DNA of 64,000 bases from the NCBI RefSeq assembly GCF_040218225.1, contig NZ_JAVJQO010000003.1, positions 62,001-126,000 of the forward strand, read 5' to 3'. Source of the DNA: Gracilimonas sp. (GTDB lineage Bacteria; Bacteroidota; Rhodothermia; Balneolales; Balneolaceae). The position numbers and the translations under genes are program-made. Positions 3,169-64,000 of this stretch are shown piece after piece. The notes beneath the pieces are model-generated. The model ran no database searches. It was not told the origin of the DNA and saw only the letters and a program-made list of their open reading frames with translations. Position 1 is the first letter of the stretch. Each line of letters begins with the position of its first letter.

Positions 3169-3741
3169 TTACTGATTGGATTTGCGCTTGTAACAGTGAT
3201 GCAGGCGACTTAGAATTCGATGCTTGCGGGTACGTACATTGGCATTGGACAAATCAAACTCCTGAACAGCATCATCGGTGCTTGCGTCCGGTTTATCCAT
3301 AAAATATTCAATGAATTCCCGCGATTTTTTACGGAGCTCACTTAAGCATTCCTCAAGAATTCTCTGGCGTTCTTTGTCCAGTAAGTTTTTAAACTGCTCT
3401 TCAGGTTCATATACCTCATTAAATGCCTCATCATCATAATTAAACTTATGCTGACGCTTCACATAACGAAGATATTCATGTCTGCATGCTTTAATGAGAT
3501 AACTAAAGATATACTTACTATTCTTGATATTATTCTTACGAACCTGTTCAAACACATCTAAAAAAGCCTGCTGAACACATTCTTTTGCTGCATTGGCTTC
3601 TGCACTCATCACTACCTGAAGATAGTCCTCAAGCCTGGGGATCACTTCCGATAAAAGCTCGCCAGCTTTCTCATCATCCCCCTTCTGGAGCGCTTCTACT
3701 AATTCCGAATAATCAACTCTGAGTTGTGCCAAACTAACCAA
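3169..3741 (-). CDS. RNA polymerase sigma factor, ECF-like (sigma-70 family)
   Basis: This is a 190-residue alternative sigma factor. The region 2 part contains CVQQAFLDVFEQV and the downstream FSYLIKACRHEYLRY stretch; the region 4 part begins at ECLSELRKKSREF and ends in a basic helix (NVRTRKHRILSRLHHCYKR). It has no ATG start: a TAG lies two codons upstream, so initiation must be at TTG 3741 or TTG 3732. It sits at the left edge of a module with twin lipoproteins, a TPR-CHAT protease and a TPR membrane protein, and is the likely reader of the three TGTAACA-N15-ACTCTT promoters found there (inference). Confidence 0.88.
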   Translation of the reverse strand: MVSLAQLRVDYSELVEALQKGDDEKAGELLSEVIPRLEDYLQVVMSAEANAAKECVQQAFLDVFEQVRKNNIKNSKYIFSYLIKACRHEYLRYVKRQHKFNYDDEAFNEVYEPEEQFKNLLDKERQRILEECLSELRKKSREFIEYFMDKPDASTDDAVQEFDLSNANVRTRKHRILSRLHHCYKRKSNQ

Positions 3742-3923
3742 CCACTAATTAAAATTTTCAGCACCATTTGTGCTTTTCTAAAACGCAATAATCTGTTGTA
3801 GACTATCACACCTTATAATCTGTCAAAATGTTAACAGCTTCAATAATAAGTGATTTTTTTTGAATTATTAATCCTTTTTAATCTTTTAGTGGCGGCTATA
3901 AATATTAAAATTTAGATTAGATG

Positions 3924-3955
3924 TGTAACAAATAGCTTAAAAAACACTCTTATAC
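3924..3955 (+). promoter_or_regulatory. Candidate alternative-sigma promoter, distal copy
   Basis: TGTAACA (3924-3930), 15 bases, then ACTCTTATAC (3946-3955). The same two boxes with the same spacing occur at 4004-4035 on this strand and at 8666-8636 on the other strand. This copy is 115 bases before the first lipoprotein start. The geometry (two boxes, fixed spacing) fits an ECF-type -35/-10 promoter; the sigma factor encoded at 3169-3741 is the natural candidate. Confidence 0.6.
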
Positions 3956-4003
3956 TGGAGTATAAGTATGCTTTTAAATAAAAATATTGACCTTTATAAA
4001 AAT

Positions 4004-4035
4004 TGTAACAAATCAAGCTTAAAGTACTCTTGTAC
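4004..4035 (+). promoter_or_regulatory. Candidate alternative-sigma promoter, proximal copy
   Basis: TGTAACA (4004-4010), 15 bases, then ACTCTTGTAC (4026-4035), ending 35 bases before the first lipoprotein ATG, a sensible distance for a promoter with a short leader. It lies 80 bases after a second copy of the same motif; the similarity between the two extends to AAAT and GCTTAAA between the boxes. The rest of the 3742-4070 gap is AT-rich and I see no further gene or RNA in it. Confidence 0.65.
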
Positions 4036-4070
4036 TTAACCCAAAATTTAATCTTAAAACCATTATATCC

Positions 4071-4259
4071 ATGAAATCTCTTAAATCTCTTTTCGCCCTG
4101 ATTGCTATCGTTTCTCTTTCTTTCGGATGTGCTTCGGTGACCGATGCTTCCCTCAACGATGAGCTGACCAGCGAACCTGCTGTCGAAACCACCACAACCG
4201 GCAACGGCGTATTCTCCGGCGGCAATGACGTGAAGCCTATTCTTGAAAAACCCTGGTAG
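4071..4259 (+). CDS. Small lipoprotein, first of an identical pair
   Basis: This 62-residue protein has a lipoprotein signal (MKSLKSLFALIAIVSLSFGC, lipid-attachment Cys20) and a mature part of only 43 residues. The tail is Thr/Gly-rich (TTTTGNGVFSGGNDVKP) and ends in KPILEKPW. I recognise no family. The protein sequence is identical to the next ORF, 240 bases downstream. Two copies of the TGTAACA/ACTCTT motif stand upstream. Position between a sigma factor and a TPR-CHAT protease suggests a secreted signal or protease substrate, but that is inference. Codons are GC-richer than the AT-rich flanks. Confidence 0.75.
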   Translation: MKSLKSLFALIAIVSLSFGCASVTDASLNDELTSEPAVETTTTGNGVFSGGNDVKPILEKPW

Positions 4260-4310
4260 TCACGACCTCAACAACCACTTAACTCAATCAACTACAAATC
4301 TATTACTATC

Positions 4311-4499
4311 ATGAAATCTCTTAAATCTCTTTTCGCCCTGATTGCTATCGTTTCTCTTTCTTTCGGATGTGCTTCGGTGACCGATGCCTCCCTCAACGAT
4401 GAGCTGACCAGCGAACCTGCTGTCGAAACCACCACAACCGGCAACGGCGTATTCTCCGGCGGCAATGATGTGAAGCCTATTCTTGAAAAACCTTGGTAA
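4311..4499 (+). CDS. Small lipoprotein, second of an identical pair
   Basis: This protein is identical in all 62 residues to the preceding lipoprotein. The DNA differs at only four positions (4388, 4469, 4493 and 4499), three of them silent third-base changes and one a TAG to TAA stop change. The flanking 50 bases on either side do not match those of copy one, so the similarity stops at the coding borders. The CHAT protease gene starts 45 bases downstream on the same strand, so all three probably share a transcript. Confidence 0.75.
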   Translation: MKSLKSLFALIAIVSLSFGCASVTDASLNDELTSEPAVETTTTGNGVFSGGNDVKPILEKPW

Positions 4500-4544
4500 T
4501 AAACAGGATTTCCTTACCTTAATACCTCATTCAGATGATTAGTT

Positions 4545-7500
4545 GTGATCCTACTTTATATAATATTTTTTGCTTTTTCATCTCCAGATACTGCCTATGT
4601 TGAAAAAACCCAACAACAGGTAAGTCGTTATGTATCCAATTTACAGGAAGGACATCAAATAAGTTTAAGCAGTTGGGCCATTTATGAGATTGCATCACAG
4701 AATTGCAAGGGGCTTAAAATTGTACAATCATATATACATGAGATACCTAAACAATCGGGTTTTTACAAAGATATAAACTGTGATTCATTAGACGAGCTGA
4801 GTGCTAATGCCAACGGGATCTCATTCTGGGACAAAAACGTCTCAACTCTTTACAATCAAATTATAGAAAGTGAGGATACAGTTTCTACAAGCATTCTAGG
4901 ATATGATGAATATCCATTGATACATTTTCATATGCTGATGGGAAATAATCCGTTTAAGTATTACTCCCGAAATTATTTAGAGAAAGCATTAAAAAGCTGG
5001 ACAAGTTATATAAATTCAGAAAATGAGAACGGTGGCTTTGAATATGCCATTATACTTTCCAATGTTATCAGGGTAGCTTATGTACTCGATGAATATAATA
5101 TTATACAAGAAAATTACACTCTATTTGTCAACCAAAATTGGTTGCCAAATTCAATTTACAGGCTAAAGCTTTTGGGAGCTTTTGAATATACGTTTTATAT
5201 CCATGGGCAATACGATAAATCACTACAGGTACAAAGAAACCATACATTGCCTCTTGCTAAGTTTATTGGGAATAATAATGAAATCAATTCTATAAAAAGT
5301 AGGCAAGGCGTTTATTTATTCTCCTTAGGGAAATATCAAGACTCAAAAAAAATTTATGAAGATCTATACAATGAGTCAGAGACTTTAGAAGAACAGTACT
5401 CTCTTTTCACAAACCTAGGGGCTACTTACCAAAAACTTGGGCAATCTAATAAATACATTTCTTTCCAGTTACGCGCACTGGAGCAAGACATAAAACAATA
5501 TACCAGCCTGCTCAGTATTTATCGAAACCTCTTTATTTATTATACATCGATAAAAGATGTCAATACTGCGATGAATTATATCGAACAAGCAAGAGAGGTA
5601 GCTTTACAAAATTCTGATACAACAGAATTAGCTCTAATTAATTCTTATTTGGGTAGTTTTTACTGGACAAATTATAAAGATGCTGAAATGGCTTTAGCTA
5701 ATTTAAATTCAGCAGCACAAATATTATCCCCGGAGCGAAATTACGATACGTATATTGATCTTCTGATAGAAAAAGGCGTTATACTCAGCAAAACAGACTC
5801 ACTTCCTGAGGCAAGAAAAGTCTTTCAGAAAATAAAAGAGCTAACCCTATCTCGCTCTAATACTCCTGACTACCTTGATGCAGTTATTAACCTTACCGCA
5901 TTAGACTTAAAACAACATAAATTATCTGAAGCTGGTAATAAGCTTGAGGAAATTACGCTTTATTCTCTTGACGACCTTGACTTTCAATTATCTGTAAAAT
6001 ATCAAACTATAAAAACGGACTATCTTAGCTTAACTGGAAATGATAGAGCTGCAATAGATAATTTGTTACCCATTATTGATCAGGTTATTGATCGCGCTAA
6101 GAATAATACTGACTCTCAGGAGGGCTATTGGTCTGTCGAAGATGAATATCTGGATGCTTTCGAGTTAATTGTTGAACTTCTTATTGAGAATAACAGAAAT
6201 GCAGAAGCACTTTCTATTCTAGATCGTCTTAAAACAATCAATGATGCTACGCTTTATAACAGTCCTCTAGTGAAAGCGGCTAAGCTAACTGAAGAAGAAT
6301 TGGCAGAAGAAAAAAGACTGAATCAACGAATCCAGTCTCTTAGAAAAAAATACTTAAATGCAGGTGAGGAAGAGAGGTTTCAAATAAAAACAGAAATCGA
6401 TCGTATTTCCGCGACAAGAGAGCAAATTTTAGCACAGGTTAATTTAGCTAAAGAAGAACCACTACCTCCTATTTGGTCGATACAACGATCTCTGAACGAA
6501 AATGAGCTGTTGCTACATTTCACAGAAGTAGGTTCAAAGTTATACGTTAGTTATCTGACATCTTCTGATATTAGTATAAAATATTATGCCTTTGACAAGG
6601 AACGTCAGGCAGTTTTCACCCAGATTGGAGATCATCTTGCATCGGGAAAAACAAACTTATTTGAGCTTTACGACTTATATGAAATTCTGGAGCTAAAAGA
6701 GATCCCAAAAAACATACATCAGGTTTCGGTTATTCCGGACAATTACCTTTACCGAATACCCCTTGAAGTACTGCCAACAGAAAGGCCCGATTCACCTGTT
6801 AGTTTTGGAAGCAGCCATTATTTAATTGAAGACTATCACTTCCGGTATTTTACTTCTCTCAAAGAGTTTGATCGTAATCGGCGGTCTTTTACTACCTCAA
6901 CAGAGAGTGACTTTACTGGCTTTGCAATCTCTGATTTCCAGAATTTCAGTGGCACAAATTTACCTTCCCTGCCCTATGCTACAGTAGAAACAAATAATAT
7001 CTCCTCTGCTCTCTCTTCCTTTAAGAATAAGAAAGTATTTACAGGTGATGCAGCCACAAAAAACATTTTTAAACAGAAAGTTGGTACTTCCCGGCTTGTT
7101 CATGTGGCTACGCATAGTGAAGTTTCAGAACAAGATCCTTTATTCTCGACTATTTATCTGAAAAACTCTACTGACTCGGATACATTACAGTCAGATCAGG
7201 CTCTTTATGCCTATGAACTATTCGATACTCCATTGAATAGTGAATTTATCATGCTAAACTCTTGCAGCTCTGGATCGGGTAACTATATACAAGGTAGTGG
7301 AATAATGGGAATAAGCCGAGCCCTCAGATATGCCGGTGCCAAAAGCCTGGCTTTAAATTTATGGTCAGTTAATGATAAAGTAGCTTCAGAATTTGCAACC
7401 GACTTTTATGATTATCTGAATAAAGGTGAAACCAAAAGTGAGGCCATTAGAAATGCAAAGCTTAATCAATTAAAGAGAGCTAATGCCAATCCTCATTTTT

Positions 7501-7634
7501 GGGGAGCTTACATGATGATTGGCAACCCCTCACCTGTAACTGGAAAATCTGCAAATACCGCATTAATGTTTTCACTTTTAGCCATGACAATGTTGTTGAC
7601 TGGATTTATTACTTATAGAAAAGAGAAAGAGTAA
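4545..7634 (+). CDS. Membrane-anchored TPR-CHAT domain protease
   Basis: This protein of 1029 residues starts at GTG (an in-frame TGA lies two codons before it). A short hydrophobic N-terminus looks like a signal peptide. Residues ~200-560 form TPR-like helix pairs, ~575-640 a charged coiled coil (LTEEELAEEKRLNQRIQSLR), and ~645-1000 a CHAT caspase-like peptidase domain. The catalytic dyad is visible as His857 in VHVATHSE and Cys907 in MLNSCSSGSG. One C-terminal membrane helix (~1003-1023) precedes RKEKE. The predicted form is therefore a periplasmic protease tethered to the inner membrane. It follows the twin lipoproteins, which are plausible substrates or regulators. TPR-CHAT proteases paired with sigma factors are known from type III-E CRISPR (Csx29), but no CRISPR gene is present here. 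Confidence 0.88.
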   Translation: MILLYIIFFAFSSPDTAYVEKTQQQVSRYVSNLQEGHQISLSSWAIYEIASQNCKGLKIVQSYIHEIPKQSGFYKDINCDSLDELSANANGISFWDKNVSTLYNQIIESEDTVSTSILGYDEYPLIHFHMLMGNNPFKYYSRNYLEKALKSWTSYINSENENGGFEYAIILSNVIRVAYVLDEYNIIQENYTLFVNQNWLPNSIYRLKLLGAFEYTFYIHGQYDKSLQVQRNHTLPLAKFIGNNNEINSIKSRQGVYLFSLGKYQDSKKIYEDLYNESETLEEQYSLFTNLGATYQKLGQSNKYISFQLRALEQDIKQYTSLLSIYRNLFIYYTSIKDVNTAMNYIEQAREVALQNSDTTELALINSYLGSFYWTNYKDAEMALANLNSAAQILSPERNYDTYIDLLIEKGVILSKTDSLPEARKVFQKIKELTLSRSNTPDYLDAVINLTALDLKQHKLSEAGNKLEEITLYSLDDLDFQLSVKYQTIKTDYLSLTGNDRAAIDNLLPIIDQVIDRAKNNTDSQEGYWSVEDEYLDAFELIVELLIENNRNAEALSILDRLKTINDATLYNSPLVKAAKLTEEELAEEKRLNQRIQSLRKKYLNAGEEERFQIKTEIDRISATREQILAQVNLAKEEPLPPIWSIQRSLNENELLLHFTEVGSKLYVSYLTSSDISIKYYAFDKERQAVFTQIGDHLASGKTNLFELYDLYEILELKEIPKNIHQVSVIPDNYLYRIPLEVLPTERPDSPVSFGSSHYLIEDYHFRYFTSLKEFDRNRRSFTTSTESDFTGFAISDFQNFSGTNLPSLPYATVETNNISSALSSFKNKKVFTGDAATKNIFKQKVGTSRLVHVATHSEVSEQDPLFSTIYLKNSTDSDTLQSDQALYAYELFDTPLNSEFIMLNSCSSGSGNYIQGSGIMGISRALRYAGAKSLALNLWSVNDKVASEFATDFYDYLNKGETKSEAIRNAKLNQLKRANANPHFWGAYMMIGNPSPVTGKSANTALMFSLLAMTMLLTGFITYRKEKE

Positions 7635-7683
7635 AAGCCGTCCTGTACTATTTGCTTCAAGGTTCAACTTTAGAGAGATGAGT

Positions 7684-7724
7684 AACAAAAAAAGACGCTT
7701 ATCTTAATTAAAAGAAAGCGTCTT
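7684..7724 (-). terminator. Intrinsic terminator
   Basis: Nine-base arms AAGACGCTT (7692-7700) and AAGCGTCTT (7716-7724) enclose a 15-base AT-rich loop. On the minus strand the hairpin is followed by a run of seven U, so it best serves the TPR gene at 7760-8500; it may also stop transcripts from the CHAT gene. Confidence 0.75.
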
Positions 7725-7759
7725 AAATAACATATTATTTAGTCTAAATTTCTATCTGC

Positions 7760-8500
7760 TTACCTTACATTTTCCAGGGCATCAACATAAGTCTTGGCGA
7801 CACGGCTGTAAGCTCCATTAAGCTCATAAGCGTTTTTAAACGCTTGTTCTGCTTCTTCAAGCCGGTCTAGTTGGAAATAAGTATTACCTAAAAACCAATA
7901 TCCTTTCTCCAGCGTAAGCACATCAATATTTTCCTGTGCTGTTACAATTTCGAAATTTTCAATGGAGGATATATAATTACCGGTGTTGTATTGGATTGAA
8001 CCCAGACTCAATGCAATTTCAGCTTTCAACTGCGGGTCTGTAGTCTCTTCCAATTCTGCCTCAAGTAAAGAAATTGCTTCCTGAACTTCACCATCTGTAG
8101 CCATACGTATAGCTCTTCGAATTATATCACTTGTAACAGTGGCCGAAACACCTTCAGCATCACGCACAACATCTAAACCTATTTGAGCTATTGGACTTAC
8201 CGAAAAATCACCATTGGTATTTAAATTCAAAACACCAATCACCGACGCTATCAAAATTACTGCGGCAGCAGCCGAATATTGAGCAACTTTTCGGAAAGAA
8301 TATACTTTTGAGGAAGGTTTTGCTGACTGCTTACGATCAATGACTGCTTTTAAATTAGCAACACTCTTCATGTAGTCCATGTAATATTCATCCTGAATAA
8401 GCTCGGCCCACAATTCGTCAGTTTGCTCAGCATCAAGCCTGCCGTTCACATACAGATCAATTTTCCTCTCCAATTCTTTATTAATCTTACTTTCTATCAT
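7760..8500 (-). CDS. Single-pass membrane TPR protein, anti-sigma-like
   Basis: This protein has 246 residues. The first ~70 residues are cytoplasmic-looking and acidic/aromatic (ERKIDLYVNGRLDAEQTDEL, WAELIQDEYYMDYM), a layout like small anti-sigma domains. A membrane helix follows at ~74-94, then about 130 residues with three TPR-like units (LSLGSIQYNTGNYISSIENF; FLGNTYFQLDRLEEAEQAF), predicted outside the cytoplasm. No classical zinc anti-sigma motif is present. Its promoter region carries the same TGTAACA/ACTCTT boxes as the lipoprotein genes. I infer that it holds or releases the sigma factor of 3169-3741, with its TPRs contacting the TPR-CHAT protein. Confidence 0.65.
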   Translation of the reverse strand: MIESKINKELERKIDLYVNGRLDAEQTDELWAELIQDEYYMDYMKSVANLKAVIDRKQSAKPSSKVYSFRKVAQYSAAAAVILIASVIGVLNLNTNGDFSVSPIAQIGLDVVRDAEGVSATVTSDIIRRAIRMATDGEVQEAISLLEAELEETTDPQLKAEIALSLGSIQYNTGNYISSIENFEIVTAQENIDVLTLEKGYWFLGNTYFQLDRLEEAEQAFKNAYELNGAYSRVAKTYVDALENVR

Positions 8501-8635: not shown

Positions 8636-8666
8636 GACAAGAGTAAGCACATTCTTTTTTGTTACA
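8636..8666 (-). promoter_or_regulatory. Candidate alternative-sigma promoter for the TPR membrane gene
   Basis: Read on the minus strand: TGTAACA (8666-8660), exactly 15 bases, then ACTCTTGTC (8644-8636). Box sequence and spacing match the two copies before the lipoprotein genes. It lies about 135 bases before the ATG at 8500, implying a long leader that contains a 26-codon ORF (8620-8540). Confidence 0.6.
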
Positions 8667-8799
8667 CTTTTTTTTCAATTTTTTTGAAATAACTATTTTG
8701 CACTTTATTTCTTTTACTAAAAGAGAATTTCAAGCAATAATGTTACAGTATTTCCCTTTACCAATAAGAATATTAAACGATTTTAATCCTCGGAACTTT

Positions 8800-29021: not shown

Positions 29022-29094
<73 letters not shown>

Positions 29095-63875: not shown

Positions 63876-64000
63876 TTCTCATTACGAAAGGTGGAGGGAT
63901 CAGGTCCTTTGAAGCCTTGGCAACCGCGTCGCACATAATTTTGTTATGTGGGATGAAAGGTGCTACATCCTGTCTCCGGTCTGTAAAGATCCGGGGAAAA
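63876..64000 (+). promoter_or_regulatory. SAM-I (S-box) riboswitch, 3' end outside window
   Basis: The conserved S-box core is clear: AGGTGGAGGGATCAG, CCTTTGAAGCCTTGGCAACC, a P3 stem CACATAA/TTATGTG, then AAAGGTGCTACATCC and a CCGG-based P4. The P1 strand TCTCATTA near 63877 should pair beyond base 64000. It binds S-adenosylmethionine and usually turns off genes for methionine or cysteine synthesis or transport; the regulated gene lies to the right of the window. Confidence 0.92.

Follow-up and report, generated by a model that had tools for sequence, protein, structure and literature searches.

A sigma factor, lipoprotein, TPR-CHAT and TPR gene module of Gracilimonas and its relatives: a candidate sigmaE-like envelope-response circuit

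We analyzed a 64,000-nucleotide stretch of the genome of Gracilimonas sp., a member of Balneolaceae (contig NZ_JAVJQO010000003.1, positions 62,001 to 126,000, forward strand), referred to below as the window. In our notation the window is G000:C3:62001-126000, where G000 is the source genome, and G, L and f labels denote the genomes, loci and families compared. The subject of the analysis is a module of four gene types at window positions 3169-8500. They encode a sigma factor of the extracytoplasmic function (ECF) type, small lipoproteins, a peptidase-like protein combining tetratricopeptide repeats (TPR) with a CHAT domain, and a TPR protein resembling an anti-sigma factor. We consider it reasonably probable that these genes constitute a sigmaE-like envelope-response module, in which the CHAT protein acts on the TPR anti-sigma either as a site-1 protease or as a sensor. 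In that case, Gracilimonas and its relatives probably have a novel means of sensing trouble in the envelope. The module (module 1) has the following parts.

3169..3741 (-): ECF-type sigma factor SIG1, 190 residues, TTG start; orthologues found in relatives
3924..3953 (+): ECF-type promoter, upstream copy TGTAACAAATAGCTTAAAAAACACTCTTAT, found by motif search
4004..4033 (+): ECF-type promoter, proximal copy TGTAACAAATCAAGCTTAAAGTACTCTTGT, 37 nucleotides 5' of the first lipoprotein ATG
4071..4259 (+): small lipoprotein, copy 1, 62 residues; lipobox LSFGC, mature start CASVTDA, conserved C-terminal tail
4311..4499 (+): small lipoprotein, copy 2, 62 residues, protein identical to copy 1
4545..7634 (+): TPR-CHAT peptidase-like protein CHAT1, 1029 residues, GTG start
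7760..8500 (-): TPR anti-sigma-like protein TPR1, 246 residues
8637..8666 (-): ECF-type promoter TGTAACAAAAAAGAATGTGCTTACTCTTGT upstream of the TPR gene, found by motif search
8721..8747 (-): possible additional site upstream of the TPR gene, TGTAACA-N15-CTCTT, kept in the genus with a spacer of 15 or 17 bp

The last of these sites overlaps the possible start of a divergent AhpC-like gene, and we are unsure of its function.

All four gene types lie at the coordinates given in a preliminary description of this DNA, made from the sequence without database searches, and its reading of the individual proteins held up. What it called an ECF-like sigma factor consists of the sigma2 and sigma4 regions only, within about 190 residues, as expected of ECF (group IV) sigma factors. 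Taken singly, SIG1 stays below the curated Pfam/NCBIfam cut-offs (37.1 bits against TIGR02937, for which 42.9 are needed; sub-cut-off E values of 1e-9 to 1e-11 for TIGR02989, TIGR02985 and TIGR02937). The profile built from 38 members of the SIG1 family matched solved ECF sigma factors, namely RpoE (2q1z, E=2.9e-8), 5uxx and SigW (5wuq).

The two lipoprotein genes, described earlier as encoding identical 62-residue proteins, do so while differing by four synonymous codons, stop codon included. Most loci in the relatives carry 1 to 6 tandem copies of ~59-85 residues, the copy number differing between species. The start of the mature protein is conserved (CASVTDA in most of family f1), as is a short C-terminal tail. 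At synonymous codons most copies differ by 0-10% within a genome as opposed to 16-50% between congeners, which points to concerted evolution of the copies. One genome has six near-identical lipoprotein genes in tandem (L087:10373-11848), and the draft contigs of G004, G015 and G021 end at the lipoprotein array.

The protein encoded at 4545-7634 matches the Pfam CHAT domain (PF12770) with E=4.5e-47 and possesses the His-Cys dyad of CHAT peptidases. In line with the membrane-tethered TPR-CHAT protease proposed earlier, it is built of a hydrophobic N-terminus, a TPR solenoid, the CHAT domain, a C-terminal membrane helix (residues 1005-1023) and a basic tail; a simple hydropathy scan revealed the helix and the short basic tail in nearly all CHAT1 orthologues. 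All 24 module-1 orthologues share His857 and Cys907 without exception, and both residues also occur in each of the 12 aligned proteins of a paralogous module (module 2, see below), while overall identity among the CHAT proteins drops to 26%. The AlphaFold model of CHAT1 has a mean predicted local distance difference test score (pLDDT) of 84.7, with a low-confidence loop (908-917) just after Cys907. Its best Foldseek match is the Myxococcus transmembrane anti-sigma DdvA (8rot), followed by separase and Csx29; structural comparison with VIA-align gave Z scores of 25.8 for Csx29, 24.3 for separase and 20.5 for DdvA. When the CHAT-domain profile was searched against PDB sequences, DdvA was the sole match (E=4e-6), with His and Cys aligned. 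The dyad is thus intact at the sequence level, and CHAT1 is a predicted peptidase. A CHAT match was also observed inside a 2016-residue open frame at G011:C177:5257-6045, possibly a fusion protein.

The relationship to DdvA brings in the main alternative. DdvA, the closest solved relative by sequence, unites a transmembrane anti-sigma and a CHAT domain in one protein (PMC4374960), and the present proteins could be a split DdvA. In that case the TPR-CHAT protein would act as a non-proteolytic co-sensor in the periplasm, bound to both TPR1 and the lipoprotein, and would retain or let go of the anti-sigma without cutting it. The TPR solenoids on both TPR1 and TPR-CHAT suit such binding. Even so, we regard this explanation as unlikely, if a serious competitor, because the invariance of His and Cys at such low overall identity points to retained catalysis, and a pure co-inhibitor would less naturally be encoded by a separate gene.

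TPR1 agrees with its earlier description as a single-pass TPR protein: it has one membrane helix (residues 75-93) with a TPR solenoid (125-245) behind it. Ahead of the membrane helix, the AlphaFold model shows helices 3-18, 24-36 and 38-60, which make up a conserved three-helix domain. This N-terminal domain is the most conserved part of TPR1, and its W31 is invariant across the TPR proteins of both modules. According to a simple hydropathy scan, the lone helix is preceded by a positively charged N-terminal side and followed by the TPRs. Such a predicted arrangement (a cytoplasmic helical domain, one membrane helix and an extracytoplasmic sensor) is that of a transmembrane anti-sigma factor. 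Gene adjacency is also as in sigma/anti-sigma pairs, since sigma2 and TPR2 are consecutive in module 2 of most genomes; in module 1, the sigma and TPR genes flank the lipoprotein-CHAT genes. Judged from sequence, the CHAT domain and the TPR repeats would lie in the periplasm and the N-terminal helices of TPR1 in the cytoplasm together with the sigma factor, which suggests an arrangement typical of a membrane anti-sigma with its site-1 protease.

Assignment of the TPR1 N-terminus to a known anti-sigma family was attempted and rejected. Matches to the zinc anti-sigma family (zf-HC2) were weak (6 of 36 members, best E 0.02), and the alignment of this region contains no conserved His or Cys. A Foldseek search with the whole TPR model gave almost only TPR proteins and no known anti-sigma domain for the N-terminus. 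In a phylum-wide profile search, strong full-length relatives were found only within the order, farther matches mostly covering the TPR part.

The genes of the module had also been thought to be bound by a shared promoter motif. A common bipartite motif, TGTAACAAAN-N13-CTCTTRT, is indeed present at 3924-3953 (+), 4004-4033 (+) and 8637-8666 (-), that is, upstream of the lipoprotein-CHAT and TPR genes, but not upstream of the sigma gene. Its AAC-containing -35 element and fixed spacer, located at the genes of the sigma factor's own module, are as expected for ECF (group IV) sigma factors. The two copies before the lipoproteins are ~80 bp apart and kept in most of f1. In the 25 kb of DNA upstream of module genes in 38 loci, exact TGTAACA-N16-CTCTT occurs 31 times ahead of lipoprotein genes and 17 times ahead of TPR1; the remaining 1.03 Mb of loci contain two, both before the operon of a receiver-domain gene and TPR1 in family f5, and the reversed pattern has 0 occurrences in the same 38 loci. 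Genome-wide, TGTAACAAA-N14-CTCTT has ~107 matches in 37 relatives versus 1 for the reversed control. Because a pattern allowing two mismatches was as frequent as its control in the source genome (64 versus 64), only exact or near-exact sites were used.

Across sigma clades the -35 element and the approximate spacing are constant, whereas the -10 element differs, usually being alike at both promoters of a genome. It reads CTCTT in f1, CTCCTA in f3, CTCAT in G033, GCATCA(T) in G027 and G136, and ATCAGTA in G032; in the genomes with the last two forms the sigma factor is 27-28% identical. A -10 element that changes in step with the sigma clade is the trace expected of a sigma factor reading its own promoters.

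The neighbourhood survey proposed in the preliminary description showed that the genes co-occur across the order. The layout with sigma pointing left, lipoprotein(s) and CHAT right, and TPR left is found in all readable f1 contigs as well as in f3, f4 and f5, and the module is ancient in Balneolales. The f1 flanks, too, are mostly syntenic (Lhr-like helicase, phosphoesterase, DUF6992, AhpC-like, GH3-like and HD genes). It might therefore be argued that the sigma, TPR and CHAT genes are ordinary neighbours kept together by synteny without any common function. We find this hardly credible: the flanks differ in f3, f4, f5 and G136, and yet the module is retained; its promoters are shared; it was duplicated as a unit; and G012, the one family member of 98% completeness without the sigma, jointly lacks CHAT and the promoter motif.

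The duplication is apparent from a second, paralogous module, present in the source genome and most of its f1 relatives.

L063:2093-9105 (G000:C4): paralogous module 2; TPR-CHAT without the C-terminal helix, then the sigma2-TPR2 operon between ScpA and PPK/RuvB

In these genomes the sigma2-TPR2 operon lies between ScpA and RuvB, and the TPR-CHAT gene near FtsY/M28, within a few kb of the operon; no lipoprotein is found there. The module-1 motif was not found within a few hundred bases upstream of module-2 genes, and one single-mismatch match was noted in L104, inside a gene neighbouring module 2. Phylogenies of the three proteins, their rows labelled by genomic location, each separate module 1 from module 2 by one change (support 100/98 for sigma, 100/100 for TPR and 100 for CHAT). 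Since the three trees split alike, the three proteins diverged together and were duplicated as a unit.

Module 2 also bears on the possibility that CHAT is an output protease acting on the lipoprotein or other envelope proteins, sigma and TPR being controlled otherwise, for example, by a receiver-domain partner. CHAT1 is part of the sigma-driven lipoprotein operon and hence a target of sigma, and the lipoproteins stand ahead of CHAT in the resolved module-1 loci. Moreover, in f3, f4, f5 and G136 a receiver-domain gene, absent from the other f1 loci read, is situated between the promoter and TPR1.

L094:3872-4450, L097:3501-4109, L202:1301-1891 and L212:7174-7761: receiver-domain genes; PF00072 confirmed in L094 and L097

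Nevertheless, we consider this explanation improbable. Module 2 has a TPR-CHAT gene beside sigma-TPR without either a lipoprotein or such a promoter, which makes it probable that the core of sigma, TPR and CHAT arose before the lipoprotein was linked to it. The common split of the three trees also speaks against this explanation.

Beyond the module, the same promoter appears to drive an undescribed, family-wide small RNA and, recurrently, exporter and pilin-like genes. In the source genome, the promoter at G000:C2:235164 (-) is followed by no open reading frame (ORF) but by a conserved sequence of ~110 nucleotides with an intrinsic terminator.

G000:C2:235022-235130 (L064:4023-4131) (-): small RNA, ~110 nucleotides; homologues in L117, L121, L126, L128, L132, L133, L138, L148, L184-L192 and L201

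Homologues follow the motif in the other Gracilimonas genomes, with three tandem copies in G003. Base pairs of the terminator covary, 8 of the 12 showing double changes. The RNA matches no Rfam family; the only hit, to NsiR1, was below threshold and due to chance. With the promoter left out of its construction, a covariance model detects the RNA in most f1 genera. Of the strong matches not used for training, all nine have the promoter 28-44 nucleotides upstream (eight perfect, one with one mismatch), whereas for six weak or secondary matches the promoter has at least four mismatches; the weak matches in G012 and G032 and the secondary ones were discarded on this ground. The presence of the promoter at strong but not at weak matches provides an independent check on the promoter as well as on the RNA. 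In family f5 (L151, L152, L153 and L155 of G025 and G028), repeats lacking an obvious ORF come after several promoter copies and may represent another small RNA, also multicopy.

As to protein-coding genes, exact sites are found ahead of permeases of the MacB/FtsX type and HlyD-type proteins in G002, G004, G008, G014, G019 and G028, pilin-like proteins starting with MGQQQLLLVILVTIIVGIATVVAIN in G000, G004, G008, G010 and G015, and also small AraC-type helix-turn-helix proteins. In the source genome, a one-mismatch site lies before a MacB-type permease and another before a gene whose G004 homologue also carries a site. At L066:2927-3839 (-), two short pilin-like paralogues (MGQQQLLLVILVTIIVG...) stand behind an exact promoter, the gene type being promoter-linked in four other genomes. 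Similar small membrane proteins with a KIPFWAKIIFGI-like start, possibly TspO/MBR-like, stand behind the promoter at L072:1743 onward and in L134 (G000 and G004).

The composition of the regulon and its inheritance are relevant to yet another alternative, namely that the module serves defence or cell death, with CHAT releasing a toxic lipoprotein as in CHAT-gasdermin systems. CHAT proteases do occur in defence systems, and the lipoproteins are small and form multicopy tandem arrays. This reading is very improbable in our view, given that the module is a core, vertically inherited feature of the order with no patchy distribution, and that its regulon comprises a small RNA as well as an exporter and pilin-like genes. 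PADLOC gave no match for any of the four proteins.

Elsewhere, the window contains a transfer RNA gene at 29022-29094 (-) and an S-adenosylmethionine (SAM) riboswitch at 63876-64000 (+), which runs past the window end.

Returning to the envelope-response reading, we infer binding of sigma by its anti-sigma, cleavage of the latter by CHAT, the lipoprotein as signal and the direction of control, which together would give the following scheme. In the resting cell, the TPR membrane protein probably holds sigma inactive: the three-helix N-terminal domain of TPR1, its anti-sigma, would keep it at the inner membrane, while both the TPR half of TPR1 and the entire TPR-CHAT protein, held in the membrane by its C-terminal helix, would face the periplasm. 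An envelope signal would activate the CHAT cysteine peptidase, the periplasmic part of the TPR anti-sigma would be cut or remodelled, and further proteolysis would release sigma. The small lipoproteins are probably linked to the signal; TPR-CHAT could read their conserved start and C-terminal tail. Free sigma would then read TGTAACA-N16-CTCTT and raise production of lipoprotein and CHAT (a positive arm) and of anti-sigma (a shut-off arm); further outputs would be the small RNA, MacB/HlyD-type exporter genes and pilin-like genes. The most specific version, in which CHAT, a cysteine peptidase of caspase/separase fold, is a periplasmic site-1 protease activated by the tails of the tiny lipoproteins, a dedicated array under concerted evolution, with the sigma-dependent small RNA as one output, we put forward tentatively, as falling somewhat short of an even chance.

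A regulated-proteolysis circuit, in which an envelope signal activates CHAT, frees sigma and boosts lipoprotein production, had already been suggested in the preliminary description. It is borne out insofar as the promoters lie where the circuit needs them, the -10 element tracks the sigma clade, and the CHAT and TPR repeats are predicted to share a compartment; its binding and cleavage steps stay conditional. The circuit is also larger than was then seen, as its regulon includes the conserved small RNA.

Several observations weigh against this reading. Profile searches with the N-terminal domain of TPR1 gave no confident Pfam or PDB match. A CHAT domain can belong to the anti-sigma itself, as in DdvA, and no cutting by DdvA was found in the literature examined. 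CHAT was not detected in a few sigma-bearing drafts (G031 and G036, 82-88% complete). The receiver-domain gene that shares the TPR1 promoter in f3, f4 and f5 hints at another input. Finally, feedback with two arms requires balanced promoter strengths, which sequence cannot reveal.

To our knowledge, envelope-damage sensing outside Proteobacteria and Firmicutes is poorly known. The reference case is E. coli sigmaE with RseA and DegS, where an ECF sigma is controlled by a membrane anti-sigma, itself autoregulated by sigma, and by a periplasmic site-1 protease, and where sigmaE-dependent small RNAs are made. The present system resembles it in having an ECF sigma, a membrane anti-sigma-like protein under its own sigma's promoter, a predicted periplasmic protease and a small RNA with an intrinsic terminator behind the sigma promoter. 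The differences are that DegS is trypsin-like, whereas here we find a CHAT cysteine peptidase fold and a TPR anti-sigma without RseA similarity, together with a dedicated multicopy lipoprotein and an unrelated small RNA.

Other precedents were overlooked by the preliminary description, which knew of no family name covering the locus. In Myxococcus xanthus, DdvA serves as anti-sigma to the ECF sigma DdvS, and its inactivating signal was unknown (PMC4374960). Both DdvS/DdvA (PDB 8rot, 8rw5) and the present system place an ECF sigma under a membrane anti-sigma system with a TPR-CHAT part. However, in DdvA CHAT is inside the anti-sigma polypeptide, whereas here the anti-sigma-like and TPR-CHAT proteins are encoded by two ORFs, as in the complete module-1 loci read elsewhere, accompanied by a lipoprotein array; the locus is thus not of the single-polypeptide DdvA type. 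In type III-E CASP loci, Csx29 cuts the anti-sigma-like Csx30, and the locus also has CASP-sigma, with sigma binding motifs inside (PMC10028731). A TPR-CHAT protease, an ECF-type sigma and an inhibitor are thus combined in one locus in both cases, and the fold similarity of CHAT1 to Csx29 has a Z score of 25.8. The CASP protease is cytoplasmic and RNA-activated; the one described here is periplasmic by sequence. Nor is the module a type III-E CRISPR CASP/Craspase locus, since its neighbours are the helicase, phosphoesterase, DUF6992, AhpC-like, GH3-like and HD genes, and no cas gene was seen beside it, although no dedicated CRISPR-array search was run. For ECF54 sigma factors, CHAT-domain proteins occur in the genetic context and control by proteolysis has been proposed (PMC8999054); compared by their published description, they are without an anti-sigma, in contrast to the anti-sigma-like partner found here.

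The association of CHAT with ECF sigma factors is therefore already known in three forms, namely DdvA, CASP (PMC10028731) and the ECF54 context (PMC8999054). New here are the split between anti-sigma and CHAT, the predicted periplasmic location, the lipoprotein array, the system's own promoter and the small RNA. If the proposed reading is true, Balneolota would possess every part of a sigmaE-like circuit, from sensor, protease and anti-sigma to promoter, regulon and small RNA, with a CHAT protease employed for signalling across the inner membrane, and the exact promoter and the small RNA render it directly testable in cultured Gracilimonas. DdvA, Csx29/CASP and ECF54 would then be linked as variants of one theme, the coupling of CHAT domains to ECF sigma factors.

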